30,236 nucleotides of DNA from a virus, in IMG/VR virus record IMGVR_UViG_3300034198_012058, positions 1-30,236 of that record; one strand, written 5' to 3'. The notes beneath the pieces are model-generated. The model worked only from the letters and a program-made list of their open reading frames with translations, was not told where the DNA came from and ran no database searches. The position numbers were made by a program, and so were the translations under genes. Positions 3,607 through 28,221 of this stretch are shown in pieces; positions within the stretch are counted from its first letter, which is position 1, and each line of letters opens with the position of its first letter.

Positions 3607-3933
3607 ATGGGAAAGCATTACTTATTAAATTTATATGATTGTTCATTGTTTTTATTAAACAATGAAATTTTTCTGTGTAATTTACTTGAAAATGCTGCCG
3701 TATCGTGTGGAGCCCAAGTTTTGCAAACAATGTCACATCAATTTAATCCCCAAGGAGTTACTGCTATTTGTTTACTTTCTGAAAGTCATATTAGCATTCA
3801 TACTTGGCCAGAGAAAGGGGAAGCAGCAGTAGATGTTTTTACATGTGGCGATTCAAATCCAAAAATTGCTTGTGATATGATTATCAAACAGTTACAAGCT
3901 AAAACACACAGAATTGATTATATTGAACGGTAA
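3607..3933 (+). CDS. speD: S-adenosylmethionine decarboxylase proenzyme (SpeD-like)
   Basis: 108-aa bacterial-type SAM decarboxylase, which makes the aminopropyl donor for spermidine synthesis. Seen: the processing site in LLSESHISIHTWPEKG (cleavage between Glu and the second Ser would create the pyruvoyl group), then AAVDVFTCGD with the conserved catalytic Cys, and C-terminal helix residues. Length fits the prokaryotic class of about 110-130 aa. Auxiliary speD genes are known in cyanophages. It starts directly after the preceding stop codon and is the last gene before the promoter at 3952. Confidence 0.93.
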   Translation: MGKHYLLNLYDCSLFLLNNEIFLCNLLENAAVSCGAQVLQTMSHQFNPQGVTAICLLSESHISIHTWPEKGEAAVDVFTCGDSNPKIACDMIIKQLQAKTHRIDYIER

Positions 3934-3951
3934 CATACGATACAAAATTAT

Positions 3952-3981
3952 TTGACTATATACATTGGCGTATGCTATAAT
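3952..3981 (+). promoter_or_regulatory. Sigma70-type promoter of the riboswitch/peptide unit
   Basis: TTGACT at 3952-3957, an 18-base spacer, and a consensus TATAAT at 3976-3981. Transcription should begin near 3988, exactly where the structured leader starts. Confidence 0.85.
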
Positions 3982-3988
3982 ACACCAA

Positions 3989-4072
3989 CGTTCATCCCAT
4001 ATGGGACGGAAGTAAAACGACTAGGAACGGAACGTTCATCCTTTTAGGACGCAACGTTGTTTGAAGGAACGC
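3989..4072 (+). promoter_or_regulatory. Tandem glutamine-riboswitch-like leader (glnA/Downstream-peptide type)
   Basis: Two consecutive domains share one plan: CGTTC opening P1, ATCC..., a short hairpin, GGACG..., and GGAACG closing P1. Copy 1 (3989-4029) has hairpin TCCC-ATAT-GGGA followed by CGGAAGTA. Copy 2 (4033-4072) has TCC-TTTT-AGGA, then a CAAC/GTTG pairing, and ends GAAGGAACGC. From memory, these match the hallmarks of the glnA and Downstream-peptide RNAs, glutamine aptamers found in cyanobacteria and cyanophages, which often occur in tandem and in front of short ORFs. A CTCTTT at 4072-4077 can pair with the AAGGAG Shine-Dalgarno sequence at 4091-4096, suggesting control of translation (inference). 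Copy 1 deviates in its 3' junction (GACTAGGAACG). Confidence 0.75.
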
Positions 4073-4103
4073 TCTTTAACCTAAACAACTAAGGAGAAAA
4101 CCT

Positions 4104-4184
4104 ATGGCACTTATATTAATTAAACAAAAAATGCTGAAGGAGAAGCGCCTCAAAGAGGCACAACTTCATATGGCAATGCGTTAA
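4104..4184 (+). CDS. 26-aa peptide gene downstream of riboswitch-like leader
   Basis: Short ORF with an excellent Shine-Dalgarno sequence (AAGGAG at 4091-4096, seven bases before ATG). The peptide begins MALILIKQKMLKEKRLKEAQ, is basic, and would form one amphipathic helix. It is the only ORF between the promoter/leader and a strong terminator, so it is a dedicated transcription unit. Short ORFs directly after this RNA class are the reason for the name 'Downstream-peptide'. The function of the peptide is unknown. Confidence 0.75.
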   Translation: MALILIKQKMLKEKRLKEAQLHMAMR

Positions 4185-4189
4185 TAACT

Positions 4190-4214
4190 GAGGGGTTGAC
4201 ACCCCTCTTTTTTT
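4190..4214 (+). terminator. Rho-independent terminator carrying a -35 box
   Basis: Stem GAGGGGT/ACCCCTC (7 bp), loop TGAC, then seven T. It lies 5 bases after the 26-aa gene. The loop with its flanking stem bases reads TTGACA, the -35 box of the next promoter. Confidence 0.9.
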
Positions 4215-4224
4215 GTGTTATGAT
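4196..4224 (+). promoter_or_regulatory. Sigma70-type promoter of the thyX unit
   Basis: TTGACA at 4196-4201 (in the terminator loop), a 17-base spacer containing the T run, and TATGAT at 4219-4224. Predicted start near 4231 would serve the ORF at 4248, thyX and downstream genes. Confidence 0.8.
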
Positions 4225-4247: not shown

Positions 4248-4550
4248 ATGCCATCATTAAAACGGGCTACTAAAATGCTTTCAAAAGCACTAGATAACCC
4301 AAACTACAACCATGATCAATACGTTGAAATTTTGAAACGTCGTCATGAGATTAAAAAACTTCGTAAAAACCTACAAGAATATGAGCGATCAACCCGTGGA
4401 TTTGGATACAAACTTGACTCATCTCTCTATGAATCATCAATCAGTGAAATTGATAACATCGACTCCGAAGGCGGAGGAAGCAATGGCGTACATAGCGAGG
4501 GTGAGCAATCCGAACAATCAGGAAAACCCGAAGATTTCGGGACTACTTAA
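4248..4550 (+). CDS. Hypothetical protein overlapping thyX, 100 aa
   Basis: The first ATG after the promoter at 4196-4224, without a clear Shine-Dalgarno sequence. The first ~60 residues look like a genuine helical basic protein (PSLKRATKMLSKALDNPNYN, then RRHEIKKLRKNLQEYERS). The last ~40 residues lie in a second frame over the thyX start and are Ser/Gly/Glu-rich low complexity (EGGGSNGVHSEGEQSEQ). The overlap with thyX, if thyX starts at 4429, is 122 bases, unusually long for this window. Either the ORF is a true overlapping gene or its 3' part is a chance extension. No family recognised. Confidence 0.55.
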   Translation: MPSLKRATKMLSKALDNPNYNHDQYVEILKRRHEIKKLRKNLQEYERSTRGFGYKLDSSLYESSISEIDNIDSEGGGSNGVHSEGEQSEQSGKPEDFGTT

Positions 4551-5073
4551 ATATTGTATTGAACATGGTCATTGGAGTGTGTTTGAACAAGCACACATGA
4601 CTCTTGAAATTAATACAACCAGGGGTCTTGCTGCACAAATTCTTCGTCACAGAAGCTTTACTTATCAAGAATTTTCTCAGCGATATGCTGATACAAATCT
4701 TTTATCAGAAGAGATTCCTGTACCAGAACTTCGTCGCCAAGATACAAAAAATCGCCAAAACTCTATCGATGATCTTGATACTGAACTTGTAATTGCTTTC
4801 CAACAACGAATTCGAATGTTGTTTGCTGAAGCACAAGAACTATATGATGATATGCTTGATGCTGGAATTGCTAAGGAATGTTCAAGGTTTGTGCTTCCTT
4901 TGGCAGTACCGACAAGAATTTACATGACTGGTTCTGTTCGTTCTTGGATACATTATATAGAATTGCGTTCAGCAAATGGCACTCAAAAAGAGCACATGGA
5001 AATTGCTCAGATGTCTAAGAAAATTTTCTCTACACAATTTCCGACAGTCGCTAATGCTTTGGAGTGGAACTAA
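4429..5073 (+). CDS. thyX: FAD-dependent thymidylate synthase ThyX
   Basis: Makes dTMP from dUMP using methylene-tetrahydrofolate, NADPH and FAD. Seen: the signature RHRSFTYQEFSQRY (ThyX RHR-x7-S motif), GHWSVFEQAHMTLEI, and a C-terminal ELRSANGTQKEHMEIA block with dUMP- and FAD-contacting residues. Start chosen at 4429 (MNHQSVKLITSTPK), giving 214 aa, the usual family length; ATGs at 4345 and 4381 in the same frame would add an N-terminal extension with no family counterpart. Its stop overlaps the next ATG as TAATG. Cyanophages commonly carry thyX rather than T4-type thymidylate synthase. Confidence 0.93.
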   Translation: MNHQSVKLITSTPKAEEAMAYIARVSNPNNQENPKISGLLKYCIEHGHWSVFEQAHMTLEINTTRGLAAQILRHRSFTYQEFSQRYADTNLLSEEIPVPELRRQDTKNRQNSIDDLDTELVIAFQQRIRMLFAEAQELYDDMLDAGIAKECSRFVLPLAVPTRIYMTGSVRSWIHYIELRSANGTQKEHMEIAQMSKKIFSTQFPTVANALEWN

Positions 5074-12895: not shown

Positions 12896-13077
12896 CACTC
12901 TTTCAAAATAGTTTGGAAGGGTATTATAAAACTAATTTTGCTCTATTACAATATCATAAGTATTCTTTGACTGAAGTTGAAAATTTAATCCCTTGGGAAC
13001 GAGAAGTTTACATTGCTTTATTAAAACAATATTTACAAGAACAAGAAGCAAAACGGGAAGCAAATAATAAAAGATGA
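12889..13077 (+). CDS. 51: gp51-like extension reached by -1 frameshift (62 aa)
   Basis: After slippage at 12883-12889 the -1 frame adds 62 residues to 236 of gp26, giving a 298-aa fusion. The extension contains SLEGYYKTNFALLQYHKYSL and TEVENLIPWEREVYIALLKQ, a strongly conserved block that I know as a short 'baseplate hub assembly/gp51' protein after gp26 in T4-like marine phages. No ATG exists in this frame; the only alternative is a TTG at the SLEG position with no Shine-Dalgarno sequence. The stop overlaps the next ATG (ATGA at 13074-13077), coupling it to the tape-measure-like gene. Confidence 0.8.
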   Translation, partial: RIALFQNSLEGYYKTNFALLQYHKYSLTEVENLIPWEREVYIALLKQYLQEQEAKREANNKR

Positions 13078-16000
13078 AATCTTCCACACAGTTTAAACTA
13101 TCAAAAAGAATTAGATTAGCTGGGAAACTTTTTGGCTACAATACGGCTTTTAGTATATTTGGAGATAAAAAACTTGGTCAAGGAGCTTTTGGCACAGTAT
13201 ATTCTTCTAAGGGTAATGCTGTAAAAGTATCTCACTCACGAGGGTTACCGAGCCTAGAAAATGAAATACAAATGCTTCAAGAAACTAGTGGCATAGGAGT
13301 TGCTCCTAAGTTACTTGGATCTGGAAAAGGATTTGCTACGATGCAAAAATTTGAAGGCAAACCTCTTTCGGAATGGTTGAAGAAAATAAAAAATGATCCT
13401 GTTTTTGCTGATTATATTTTTAGAAAAATTGTAGAAGCAATTGGAGCTTTACATAGGAAAAATATTGCTCAACGAGATCTTCATGCTGGTAATATTTTTA
13501 TTACTAATGATTATCAAGTTAAAATTCTTGATTACGGACAAGCACGTAAAGGTTATGCAATAACTTTTTTTGAAACCTTTTTTGGAAATAACAATGATCC
13601 AACTGAAGGATCATTGGGATTAATTGCACATTTATTTACTGATACTAATTCATATAAAGTATATAAAAAAATATTAATAAATGCTATAAAAGTTATTTGT
13701 AAAAAGAAAGGAGTTGATTTCAATATTATATTACGAGGATATGAAGCTATTGAAGGTGACGATAAAAAAGAAAGAGAATATTTTGATAATTTAGAAATCA
13801 TAGCTCATCATGTTGAAAATGACTATACTGATGTTGGAAATTTTTATAGTGCTTTAGATAAAACACTCAAAATTAATACAAAAAATCCTAAAAAAATACG
13901 AACTATTGTACCTAAAACATCTATTGCATCTAAAACTTCTGGAATTGCTTCTTCTATTAATAAAAAGTATAGTTTCAAAGGTACTATTCCACAAGCATCA
14001 GAAGGAGGAGTATTCTCTGGTCCTGAATCTGGATATCCGATAATACTACATGGAACGGAGGCAGTAATTCCTCTGGACGATATTAACGTTCCTGCTGCAC
14101 GATATATTCAGGGGCAATCAGGAGTTTGGGAATTAGACTTTGAATCTATTTTAGATCACGCAATATATTTTGCAGGCAAATCTCCGTTTCCTAAAGGAGC
14201 AAAGCAAGCAGAAATATTAGATTGGCTTCAGGATACTTTAGGATTAACATACAAAGAAATTTCTGAGCATAGAGAAAAAATTCTCGATAAGATTAGAGAA
14301 CTAACTCCAGGAGCGTGGGAAGGAGGAAATTATCCTTATCTTAAAATTCCTAGGATAGATCCTAAGTTTGAAATGGAAGTCTACATGGGATCAGAAACTT
14401 CTGTATATAAACCTGGAGAAAAATTTGTAGATGATCAAAAAGAAATTTTTGATAATATTATTCATAAAGCAGAAGATGCTTTAGAAGAAACTTCTGATGG
14501 CATCATGGATGCTATTGATGAACTTCTTAGAAAAGACCAAGAAAAACTAGAAAAATTTAAAGAAGAAGAAGCAAAAAGACTAGAAGAAAGAATTAAAAAA
14601 ATTTATGAAACTGATGCTCAAGATGATGAAAACGAAGAAGAACCTGAAGGGCTTGATGAATTATTGAATGATATTGCTCAAGAAAAAACTACCGAAGAAA
14701 TCAATGAGGATGTTCTTGATGATTTGCCAGAAGGATTGCGAGAAGCTTTGGCAAATCACATCAATAAAAAAACTGGTAGGGAAGTTATACCACAACAAGA
14801 AAAAACTAACAAATCATCTTCAGTAAGTAATAGTAAAATATATAAATTTTTGACTACTGGAATAACACAGATACAAAATAAATTAAATTCTATAGATGCT
14901 TCTTTACAAGAACAAAATAATTTATTAAGGAATTCTATAGAGTTATCTTTTAAAGCAATTGAAAGAGTAGAAGAACAGGATCAAATTTTAGCGAACAAAA
15001 TTGATGCTTTAACTGATGCATATTTAAATCAAAATCACTTAGCAAAAGAAGTATATGATAAACAAGAATTTAAAAGAAATGAAACTGCATTGGAAAGATC
15101 AAGAAAAGTTTCTGGATTAGAAACTCCAATTGATACTAGAAATTTAAATAATTCTTCTAATGGTTCTGGTTTTATTAGTAAACTGAGAAAATTCTTTAAA
15201 ACTAATGTTGGTAAATTTTTGTGGCGTTTGATAGAAAAACATATACCAGCTAGATTAAAATCAGTTTTATTTGGAATTAATAAAATTGCTAAACTACCAT
15301 CAAAAATAGCATCTAAAATTTCTAGATCAATAATTAATAAAGCTTCTCAAAGATTAGCTCCAAAGGTAGCAACAACAGTAGCAAGAACAGGAGTAGTAAA
15401 GGGATGGGAACATATTGCATTACCTGGAGTAGAAAAATCAGTTGCTTCTTCTGTAGATAAACCAATAGCCAAAGCATTTTCTACTCAAACAGATAATATT
15501 TTAATTAAAATCTTAAAAAGTCGTAAGGTTCAGGAAGCATTAGTTAAAAAATTAGGAAAAGAAGGTGCAGAAAAACTATCTGTTAAACTAGCTGGTAAAT
15601 TAATTCCTGGAATTTCTACTGTTTATGGTCTTGGGGAAGGTCTTGCTCGTATGGCTATGGGTGATATTAAAGGAGGATTTTTATCTTTTGGTAGTGCGAT
15701 TCCAGTAGCTGGATGGGGATTTGCTGCGATTGATGTGCTTAGAGATTTAGATACTACAGCATACACAAAACATATTGAGTCTAATTTAAGTGATATTACT
15801 ACTGGAAATGGTAATGAACACATAGCAGCCTTCTTTGCCGATGCATTAGGAATAAAAGAAGGAGATTATGAAGTTGGTGGTCTTACTAAACCAGGAATAT
15901 CTATGCTTCATGGCACCGAAGCGGTTATTCCTAAGAATCGTACAACACCAGTTGATCCTATTGGAGGAATCTTATTATCAGCAACTCTCAATTACATGAA

Positions 16001-17696
16001 AAATGCTGGTCCAGAAGCAAGTTCTATAGCGCCAATGATAAAACAAGTGGCATCTCCTTTAACAAAAATATATGATGTTCCAAATGTAGTTGTTACTACT
16101 CCTGTTGGTGGAAATATGTCAGGATTATCTTCTACATTTAAACAATTCAAAACAAAAACTTCTACTGATGAATTATCTTTGGAAGAAAAAGATCTTATGA
16201 ATACTCCTAATGAAACTATATTTTCTGAGATGCTTTATAAAATGATAGATCCCGAAGGAAAATTTTTAAAAATAATTGATGATATTAAAACAAAATTTTT
16301 GAATTTTAGAAATCCTTTATTACCCCCTGGTCCCCCAGGACAAGTAGGTGCTGAACCGTTTGTATTGCTTGGTGGTAGTCAAGATCCTGGGCAAGCAGGA
16401 ATTGATTTTACTTTAAAAGGCACTCAAAATAGAGCAATTTTTGCTGGTACTGTGGTTGAAATTGATCATCAATATAATCCAAATGTAACGGGTGGGGATA
16501 ATAGGAAGGGTGCTGGGTATGGTAATTATGTTGTAATAAGATCCACAAATCCTGTTGATGGATCTCAAGTTGATATGTTATATGCACATTTCCCGCAAGG
16601 AGAAATAAAAGTTAATCAAGGAGATCAAGTATCAGTTGGTCAAGATCTTGGTAGAATGGCAACAGAACAAGAATTTGCTGATCCTAGAACTAGACCACAA
16701 GTTGGAAGTGGTACTGGTGCTCATACAAGTTTAGATTTTTTTAAACCAGGATCACACCAAGCACATTCGAAAGCAAGAGAAATTGGTGATTATATTTTAA
16801 AAGAACTTAGAAAAGGTCCTCAAGGTGAAATTGAAAAAACAAGGCAACAAGCATACCAAGCTCAACAAACAACTGCAAATAAATCATTACCAACTGCAAA
16901 AGGTCTTGGTAAACAAGGTGTCGTGAGCAATCAAGATTTTGGTCAAACTTCTGGGGTAGGAAATAAGGGTTATTTAATTGTTCCTGGTCATGCTTCTGGT
17001 GGTGGTGCTCCAGAAGAAAAATCTCTTGTAAGAATGTTGGCAAAAAATGCTTATGATAATTTAAAATCCAAATACCCTTCTGCAAATATTCAATATATGG
17101 ATCCAGATTCAATGTTTACTGATGATGATTCTGGTTGGAATAAACAAAAAGATTGGTACAAACAAAAAGAAAAAGAAGGGTGGGAAATTTTAGAAGTGCA
17201 TATGGATGCTTCTATTGAATCTGGTGAGGGAAAGGGTAGAGGAGTTATTACTTCTAAGTCTGAAATGAATCCTGTTGAAGCTTATTTTGCTAAAAATTAT
17301 GGAGCATATGATAGAGGATTTAGAGATCTTGCTTTGAGTAATAGAGGTGGAGGTATATTTGAATTGGGTAATATGTCTCCTGAATTACAAAAAAATGTAA
17401 AATCTAATAAAGTTTCTGCTGATCAATTAAATGCATTAACTGCTCCTCTTGAAAGATCTATTGCAGTTGGATTAAATTTACACCCTCCATCTCAAAAAAC
17501 TAAATTTCAAACTCTACAAGGACCTGATAAAAAGGAAGATACAAAATTTTTAATTATTAATCAAGCATCAGCTCCAACAATTAATGGTTCTACTTCAACT
17601 AGTTTTGAATCTATCGGAGATGGTTCTTGGAGATCCACTACTGAACTTAATTCTTCTGCTAGAAATTTACTTATGCTTCGTCTTGGTGCTAACTAA
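13074..17696 (+). CDS. Tape-measure-like tail protein with kinase-like and wall-hydrolase domains, 1540 aa
   Basis: Multi-domain protein. Residues about 30-260: protein-kinase-like domain with glycine loop GQGAFGTV (35-42), Lys51, Glu64, catalytic loop QRDLHAGN (Asp135, Asn140) and DYG (153-155). Around 309-336 and 936-953: the tape-measure motif form GGVFSGPESGY...LHGTEAVIPL and GGLTKPGISMLHGTEAVIPK. Middle: acidic coiled coil (470-560) and Gly/Ala-rich hydrophobic helices (840-890). About 1105-1225: M23-peptidase-like fold (GIDF, YAHF, GAHTSLDF), with zinc ligands partly replaced (Gln for His before GIDF; Ser for the last His). About 1300-1435: amidase_3-like domain with VPGH, EVHMDA and FELGNMS, ligands apparently kept. 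It follows the gp26/51 chaperone by an ATGA overlap. Likely central tail component delivering wall cleavage at infection. Confidence 0.75.
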   Translation: MKSSTQFKLSKRIRLAGKLFGYNTAFSIFGDKKLGQGAFGTVYSSKGNAVKVSHSRGLPSLENEIQMLQETSGIGVAPKLLGSGKGFATMQKFEGKPLSEWLKKIKNDPVFADYIFRKIVEAIGALHRKNIAQRDLHAGNIFITNDYQVKILDYGQARKGYAITFFETFFGNNNDPTEGSLGLIAHLFTDTNSYKVYKKILINAIKVICKKKGVDFNIILRGYEAIEGDDKKEREYFDNLEIIAHHVENDYTDVGNFYSALDKTLKINTKNPKKIRTIVPKTSIASKTSGIASSINKKYSFKGTIPQASEGGVFSGPESGYPIILHGTEAVIPLDDINVPAARYIQGQSGVWELDFESILDHAIYFAGKSPFPKGAKQAEILDWLQDTLGLTYKEISEHREKILDKIRELTPGAWEGGNYPYLKIPRIDPKFEMEVYMGSETSVYKPGEKFVDDQKEIFDNIIHKAEDALEETSDGIMDAIDELLRKDQEKLEKFKEEEAKRLEERIKKIYETDAQDDENEEEPEGLDELLNDIAQEKTTEEINEDVLDDLPEGLREALANHINKKTGREVIPQQEKTNKSSSVSNSKIYKFLTTGITQIQNKLNSIDASLQEQNNLLRNSIELSFKAIERVEEQDQILANKIDALTDAYLNQNHLAKEVYDKQEFKRNETALERSRKVSGLETPIDTRNLNNSSNGSGFISKLRKFFKTNVGKFLWRLIEKHIPARLKSVLFGINKIAKLPSKIASKISRSIINKASQRLAPKVATTVARTGVVKGWEHIALPGVEKSVASSVDKPIAKAFSTQTDNILIKILKSRKVQEALVKKLGKEGAEKLSVKLAGKLIPGISTVYGLGEGLARMAMGDIKGGFLSFGSAIPVAGWGFAAIDVLRDLDTTAYTKHIESNLSDITTGNGNEHIAAFFADALGIKEGDYEVGGLTKPGISMLHGTEAVIPKNRTTPVDPIGGILLSATLNYMKNAGPEASSIAPMIKQVASPLTKIYDVPNVVVTTPVGGNMSGLSSTFKQFKTKTSTDELSLEEKDLMNTPNETIFSEMLYKMIDPEGKFLKIIDDIKTKFLNFRNPLLPPGPPGQVGAEPFVLLGGSQDPGQAGIDFTLKGTQNRAIFAGTVVEIDHQYNPNVTGGDNRKGAGYGNYVVIRSTNPVDGSQVDMLYAHFPQGEIKVNQGDQVSVGQDLGRMATEQEFADPRTRPQVGSGTGAHTSLDFFKPGSHQAHSKAREIGDYILKELRKGPQGEIEKTRQQAYQAQQTTANKSLPTAKGLGKQGVVSNQDFGQTSGVGNKGYLIVPGHASGGGAPEEKSLVRMLAKNAYDNLKSKYPSANIQYMDPDSMFTDDDSGWNKQKDWYKQKEKEGWEILEVHMDASIESGEGKGRGVITSKSEMNPVEAYFAKNYGAYDRGFRDLALSNRGGGIFELGNMSPELQKNVKSNKVSADQLNALTAPLERSIAVGLNLHPPSQKTKFQTLQGPDKKEDTKFLIINQASAPTINGSTSTSFESIGDGSWRSTTELNSSARNLLMLRLGAN

Positions 17697-28149: not shown

Positions 28150-28221
28150 CCTCTGGTAGTCTATTGGTAAGGACAGGCAGACAATGCACTTGGAAACTAG
28201 GTTCGATTCCTAGACAGAGGA
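28150..28221 (+). pseudogene. Degenerate tRNA-like element
   Basis: Acceptor CCTCTG/CAGAGG, a D-arm (GTC...GAC with TTGGTAA loop) and a perfect T-arm CTAGG-TTCGATT-CCTAG make a tRNA shell of normal length (72). The anticodon arm does not fold normally: GGCAG cannot pair with ACTTG and there is no T33 before any triplet. A shorter pairing AGGCA/TGC(A)CT with loop GACAA is possible. It may be a decayed tRNA or a tRNA-like RNA with another role. Confidence 0.65.

Follow-up and report, generated by a model that had tools for sequence, protein, structure and literature searches.

The window analysed here is the complete 30,236-base virus record IMGVR_UViG_3300034198_012058, whose gene content indicates a fragment of a T4-like cyanophage. 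Between speD, the gene of S-adenosylmethionine decarboxylase (3607-3933, PF02675, 2e-35), and thyX (4345-5073, PF02511, 3.2e-46), both on the plus strand and with phoH further downstream, lies a small unit on the same strand composed of a promoter, a glutamine-riboswitch-like RNA, an open reading frame (ORF) for a peptide of 26 amino acids and a terminator. The order speD, glutamine RNA with a YRG peptide, thyX and phoH is also found in the cyanophage S-PM2, and Bellamy and S-SM2 carry glutamine RNA/peptide units of their own upstream of thyX.

The transcription signals proposed in an earlier reading made from the sequence alone (hereafter the sequence-only reading) are present at both ends of the unit. 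A sigma-70-type promoter, TTGACT-18-TATAAT with a TG before the -10 box, occupies 3952-3981 (+) and agrees with the consensus at 11 of 12 positions, and transcription is expected to start at about 3987-3989, which is the 5' end of the aptamer. Since this promoter is of the host type, the transcript would probably be made by the host RNA polymerase. Among 127 related RNAs of the composite layout described below, only 24 have a -10 box of the narrow pattern TANNAT within 12 nt upstream, so promoter conservation throughout the class is not claimed. At the downstream end, inspection of the sequence reveals an intrinsic terminator at 4190-4214 (+), namely GAGGGGTTGACACCCCTC followed by seven T residues, with a 7-bp stem of which five pairs are G-C; in all relatives that reach that far its position is kept while the stem sequences are altered. 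The promoter of the next gene overlaps it (4196-4224, +), with the -35 box TTGACA in the terminator loop and the -10 box TATGAT at 4219-4224. This fused terminator-promoter, having TTGACA or TTGACT in the loop and a -10 box about 17 nt further on, recurs in nearly all relatives that extend to it (L264-L280 and L381).

The RNA itself contains the landmark CGTTCATCC...GGACG twice, at 3989-4008 and 4033-4051, as had been noticed from the letters, and 100 shuffles gave an expectation of zero for it. The covariance model of the type-I glutamine (glnA) riboswitch, RF01739, matches both copies: copy 1 at 3987-4029 with 29.5 bits (E = 1.3e-4 against all Rfam, 2.9e-6 for the family alone on this record) and copy 2 at 4031-4075 with 34.0 bits (E = 7.6e-6 and 1.7e-7, respectively), both significant yet just short of the 35 bits set as gathering score. 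Scores of 35.5 to 51.5 bits occur among relatives coding for the same peptide, and three of these with a single ordinary aptamer exceed the gathering score clearly (L276 with 51.5, L280 with 46.5 and L269 with 43.9 bits). Because of these above-threshold relatives the membership of the group is secure, though the present copy falls slightly under the curated threshold. A merely accidental likeness to glutamine RNAs, for which one could cite only those sub-threshold scores, is negligibly probable in view of the zero expected landmark matches, the hundreds of related loci and the scores of the relatives. Judged from sequence, the RNA belongs to the type-I glutamine riboswitches, and this copy would be expected to bind glutamine. 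The sequence-only reading had named the Downstream-peptide (type-II) family as well, and that part failed: RF01704 gives 20.9 bits where 33 are required, and the second helix of the match contains non-standard pairs. Two other sub-threshold Rfam matches over the unit, BSR0626 and STnc50, lie far under their own cut-offs.

Regarding the architecture, the two copies are better read, on sequence grounds, as one nested aptamer at 3989-4071 (+), whose P3 helix carries an inserted P1/P2-like element. In this composite each hallmark of RF01739 occurs exactly once, as in a typical type-I aptamer such as the one before gifB in Synechocystis: P1 (3989-3993/4067-4071), P2 (here P2a, 3995-4006), J2/3 GGAAGUA (4008-4014, from copy 1), P3, and J3/1 GAAG (4063-4066, from copy 2) before GAACG. 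The P3 helix (4015-4062) is common to both copies, AAACGAC at 4015-4021 pairing with GUUGUUU at 4056-4062 in seven pairs including one G-U, and at its tip (4025-4049) sit an inner hairpin GAACG-GAA-CGUUC (4025-4037) and a hairpin P2b (4039-4049), both read from RNAalifold. The 5'-UTR position with a maskable Shine-Dalgarno (SD) sequence is also shared with the known type-I RNAs, from which the phage RNA differs in that its P3 is formed by two partial copies with the P1/P2-like insertion and in that the gene behind it is a 26-aa peptide instead of gifB or glnA.

Comparative evidence supports the shared helix. Within the cyanophage class J3/1 is missing from copy 1 and J2/3 from copy 2, and the stretch that follows J2/3 in the former can pair with the stretch that precedes J3/1 in the latter. 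Across 139 distinct composites, taken from viral as well as genome loci, J2/3 reads C[GC]AAGTA in copy 1, J3/1 reads [GA]AAGGAACG in copy 2, and the linker of the inner hairpin has at least 3 nt in every case. The P3 partners covary across relatives, with AGUCA/UGACU, AGUCG/CGACU, GGUCG/CGACU, GGACGG/CCGCCC (one mismatch) and GGCUAACG/CGUU(G)AGCU. For 35 distinct pairs the duplex has a mean energy of -4.47 kcal/mol, against -3.04 +/- 0.28 kcal/mol for exchanged partners, and none of 300 exchanges was as low; the sequences are akin, so that this is not a strict probability, though several of the changes are compensatory. Run without constraint on 56 composites, RNAalifold brings the first P1 strand of copy 1 together with the final one of copy 2, and the inner GAACG/CGUUC hairpin also forms in its consensus. 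Moreover, in the Infernal alignments the close relative L381 (40.4 bits) and S-CREM1 (34.4 bits) each form one aptamer, interrupted in P3 by a 56-nt insert. As for the reference sequence, single-sequence folding (z -1.2) is uninformative about the shared P3, and the minimum free energy structure of the aptamer alone differs from the composite fold (-20.5 vs -18.1 kcal/mol), which counts against the composite.

The obvious competitor is the view that two independent type-I aptamers follow one another and together steepen the response to glutamine in a pseudo-cooperative manner. It can draw on the separate RF01739 match of each copy, on the 157 glutamine doublets catalogued as pseudo-cooperative in a 2022 review of tandem riboswitches (PMC9481103), and on the existence of genuine tandems with one P3 per copy in loci of the SAR86 type. 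For the cyanophage RNA, however, we consider it improbable: the half-cores are divided between the copies, P3 covaries across them, folding as two separate P1/P2 domains costs 7.4 kcal/mol relative to the composite (-10.7 vs -18.1 kcal/mol), and the relatives named above are aligned by Infernal as one aptamer. Since P3 joins one strand from each copy, the part of the sequence-only reading that saw two independent, unlike aptamers with graded or two-input control needs revision; each copy is without half of the conserved core, and a complete aptamer per copy, as in a true tandem, is not found. In the nested aptamer a second glutamine might still be bound at the inner junction, as far as the sequence goes. 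The interlocked P3 implies that catalogued "tandem" glutamine riboswitches need re-examination, and many cyanophage doublets may be single composites.

Two variants of the arrangement deserve mention. Three relatives (L268, L272 and L276) have the same peptide behind one plain aptamer, with P3 AG-GAAA-CU. The true tandems of the SAR86-type genomes (L402, L441 and L442), in which both copies have a P3 of their own, precede short ORFs ending in KKDxFFPYYL and could mark a separate glutamine-controlled peptide family.

Directly behind the aptamer lies the expression platform (4072-4096, +), in which an anti-SD segment CUCUUUA (4072-4078) can pair with UAAGGAG (4090-4096) and thereby mask the SD sequence AAGGAG (4091-4096), much as the sequence-only reading had suggested. 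Seven pairs are possible, and the probability that the SD is unpaired is about 0.05. At least 119 viral contigs have the same platform 3' of their aptamer, and other contigs with the same peptide have at the same place a mask of different sequence, GCaCCaaUAC/GUAaaGGaGC. The mask is thus kept even where its sequence differs, which argues that masking is conserved and that control is most likely translational.

The direction of switching is more delicate. P1 ends at 4071 and the mask begins at 4072, so that both can form and stack; the SD is unpaired with a probability of 0.03 when the aptamer is enforced and 0.05 without it, and the mask persists beside P1. As P1 and the mask can coexist, folding energies do not tell ON from OFF. 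These same figures are what an OFF switch would lean on, in which glutamine stabilizes P1, P1 stacks on the SD-masking hairpin, and the peptide is produced under glutamine shortage. Against it, in relatives the final G of P1 is also part of the mask, which P1 would there weaken, and both characterized types of glutamine riboswitch, that of gifB in Synechocystis and a type-II RNA of Prochlorococcus, are ON switches (PMC6316151). We therefore take ON as the more likely direction, by analogy with the family and not explained by the energies, and regard OFF as rather unlikely.

The ORF behind the platform (4104-4184, +; ATGGCA...CGTTAA) encodes MALILIKQKMLKEKRLKEAQLHMAMR, a helix-only peptide, and both its codon pattern and a profile built from host peptides alone mark it as genuine, which confirms the short ORF, preceded by AAGGAG, of the sequence-only reading. 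Relatives were collected with a degenerate DNA pattern: 19 other contigs encode MALILI[KR]QKMLKE.RL.EAQ..., which together with the reference locus makes 15 distinct ORFs in 20 contigs. Differences from the present ORF fall 65, 32 and 134 times on codon positions 1, 2 and 3 (134 of 231 at the third), and the L270 ORF differs by seven synonymous codon changes and no non-synonymous one. The peptide is thus conserved under purifying selection, as far as codon comparison can tell. It could be objected that the ORF is a mere leader peptide or by-product and that the real product is a short RNA of about 220 nt, an sRNA or a sponge; the transcript is in fact short and self-terminated, and Prochlorococcus Yfr6 was originally described as a non-coding RNA (PMC1242208). 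The third-position bias, the purely synonymous changes in L270, the protein-level homology with host peptides and an SD that is always at the right distance make such an RNA product very improbable.

Among 121 phage ORFs behind an identical platform, 103 encode YRG peptides, six YRG plus helix and 12 the helix only, and nothing else occurs. The YRG peptides match or approach DUF4278 (PF14105) and phrog_5049/545, the main product class behind these riboswitches in both phages and hosts. DUF4278 makes up the N-terminal portion of IF17, whose synthesis the Synechocystis glutamine riboswitch controls, and the host arrangement of riboswitch and DUF4278 is already established (PMC6316151). The 26-aa peptide differs from this class in being helix only: it has no Pfam match and no YRG or YRGxxY motif, NCBIfam gave nothing for six members of its family, and it matches the helix half alone of phrog_545, weakly (0.039). 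A close published system is the glnA riboswitch of S-CREM1, which has the same composite layout and platform and whose peptide retains the N-terminal YRG motif and ends in the same helix (..WLALIRAQIEKENKLKEAQLAMAMK); the portion of the paper available (PMC9964418) reports the RNA and mentions neither a shared P3 nor the peptide family. In one contig (L353) the YRG ORF reads on into the helix ORF (MKKLNFLQLIKEQKQKEERRHQAQLAQLVGAK), which suggests a two-gene arrangement or a module fusion. In a further set of viral contigs (L011, L035, L056, L060, L095, L106, L119, L122 and L144) a glutamine aptamer stands 13 nt before ORFs of about 53-56 amino acids, which end in WDAND or similar and belong to phrog_504.

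What links the phage peptide to the host is a family of short helical peptides in picocyanobacteria, with the common motif LxLIRxQIxKxxRLxxAQL. What follows the type-II glutamine riboswitches there is either a YRG peptide or a peptide that starts with MNxLxLIRxxIxKAxRLxxAQL, and homologues of the phage peptide include MNPLALIREQILKAERL.. and MNELSQIREKITRAKRL... A hidden Markov model of 24 host peptides alone finds the phage peptide with E = 6.6e-7, the next best of 1118 six-frame segments having 0.28, and gives it 30.6 bits; among 4724 scored shuffles none exceeds 18.7. When the host and phage profiles are compared with each other, they match at 98.5% (E = 2.6e-15), and forms that join helix and YRG exist in hosts (L563, L564) as well as in phage Bellamy. 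In 61 Cyanobiaceae genomes, 30 of the 31 helix hits matching at the N-terminus lie directly behind an RF01704 match, counted by coordinates and with a query alignment that included four host sequences, which are not those of most of the genomes hit. The phage peptide is, by sequence, a viral member of this host family of glutamine-riboswitch peptides. In both systems a glutamine RNA stands before a very short ORF, and the helix peptides are homologous; the difference lies in the RNA, which is type I in the phage. The tie to host nitrogen status drawn in the sequence-only reading thus holds by way of the host relatives, which are kept under type-II glutamine riboswitches. Near the host helix genes no consistent nitrogen gene was found; one OTCase and one Crp-type regulator lie nearby. 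Several host peptides (L548, L549, L552 and similar) have 59 amino acids with a second half-motif at the C-terminus (KAKRLHNAQLMA), which forms an internal repeat.

Taken together, we favour, with a probability of about 0.7, a stand-alone unit in which one interlocked type-I riboswitch gates a helical peptide of the host family, likely as a high-glutamine ON switch and with a target in nitrogen assimilation. The riboswitch would read glutamine, free or mask the SD and so gate translation of the peptide. As to timing, which we infer like direction and target, the peptide would most likely be made at high host glutamine. Its target, most likely one in host nitrogen assimilation, is probably shared with the host homologues, since these respond to the same metabolite, and the phage peptide would work there as a mimic or a competitor. 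As these relatives are under glutamine sensors too, the virus probably plugs into host nitrogen signalling.

A more daring extension concerns known regulators of nitrogen metabolism. Picocyanobacteria are without the glutamine synthetase (GS) inactivating factors IF7/IF17 and without PirA, which acts on arginine synthesis, and their GS regulation is described as unclear (PMC6316151, PMC8092223); PirA in particular is reported absent from the marine ones (PMC8092223), and a search of the sampled picocyanobacteria yielded no IF7 homologue. These factors resemble the helix peptides in being small, basic, nitrogen-regulated cyanobacterial proteins. The helix peptides could conceivably stand in for the missing factors in picocyanobacteria and in phages, binding a nitrogen-assimilation enzyme or PII, with cyanophages deploying stripped-down copies behind an interlocked-P3 riboswitch, distinct in architecture by its second junction, to set the nitrogen flux of infection; we hold this to be doubtful. 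A homology of the helix to the GS-binding domain of IF7/IF17 was rejected (hhalign 0.1%, below shuffled controls), and comparison with solved structures gave nothing significant for IF7 or the helix. A peptide family that stands almost only behind glutamine riboswitches in these bacteria, and that their phages have copied together with a glutamine riboswitch of their own, is a specific and testable candidate regulator in picocyanobacteria.

Concerning precedence, glutamine riboswitches have been published in cyanophages (PMC9964418, PMC9602691), so that this part of the sequence-only reading is not new (PMC9964418), and in marine phages (PMC9004378), where the RNA of methylophage Melnitz is likewise phage-borne but linked to tmRNA instead of a short peptide. 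Short peptides behind Downstream-peptide RNAs (PMC2864571) are also on record, as are glutamine doublets (PMC9481103). In the open-access literature we found no paper that links phage peptides with DUF4278, or that describes the helix family or the shared P3. The interlocked P3 and the phage-host link through the helix peptides appear to be new, provisionally, because the search covered mainly open-access papers.

Elsewhere in the window, ARAGORN calls a tRNA-His with anticodon ATG at 28150-28221, which Rfam does not confirm and which is probably a pseudo-hit. The large protein encoded at 13074-17696, putatively of the tail or otherwise structural, has at its N-terminus a protein-kinase domain (PF00069, E 2.6e-12) that includes the motif RDLHAGN...DYGQ, an unusual feature in a phage structural gene.
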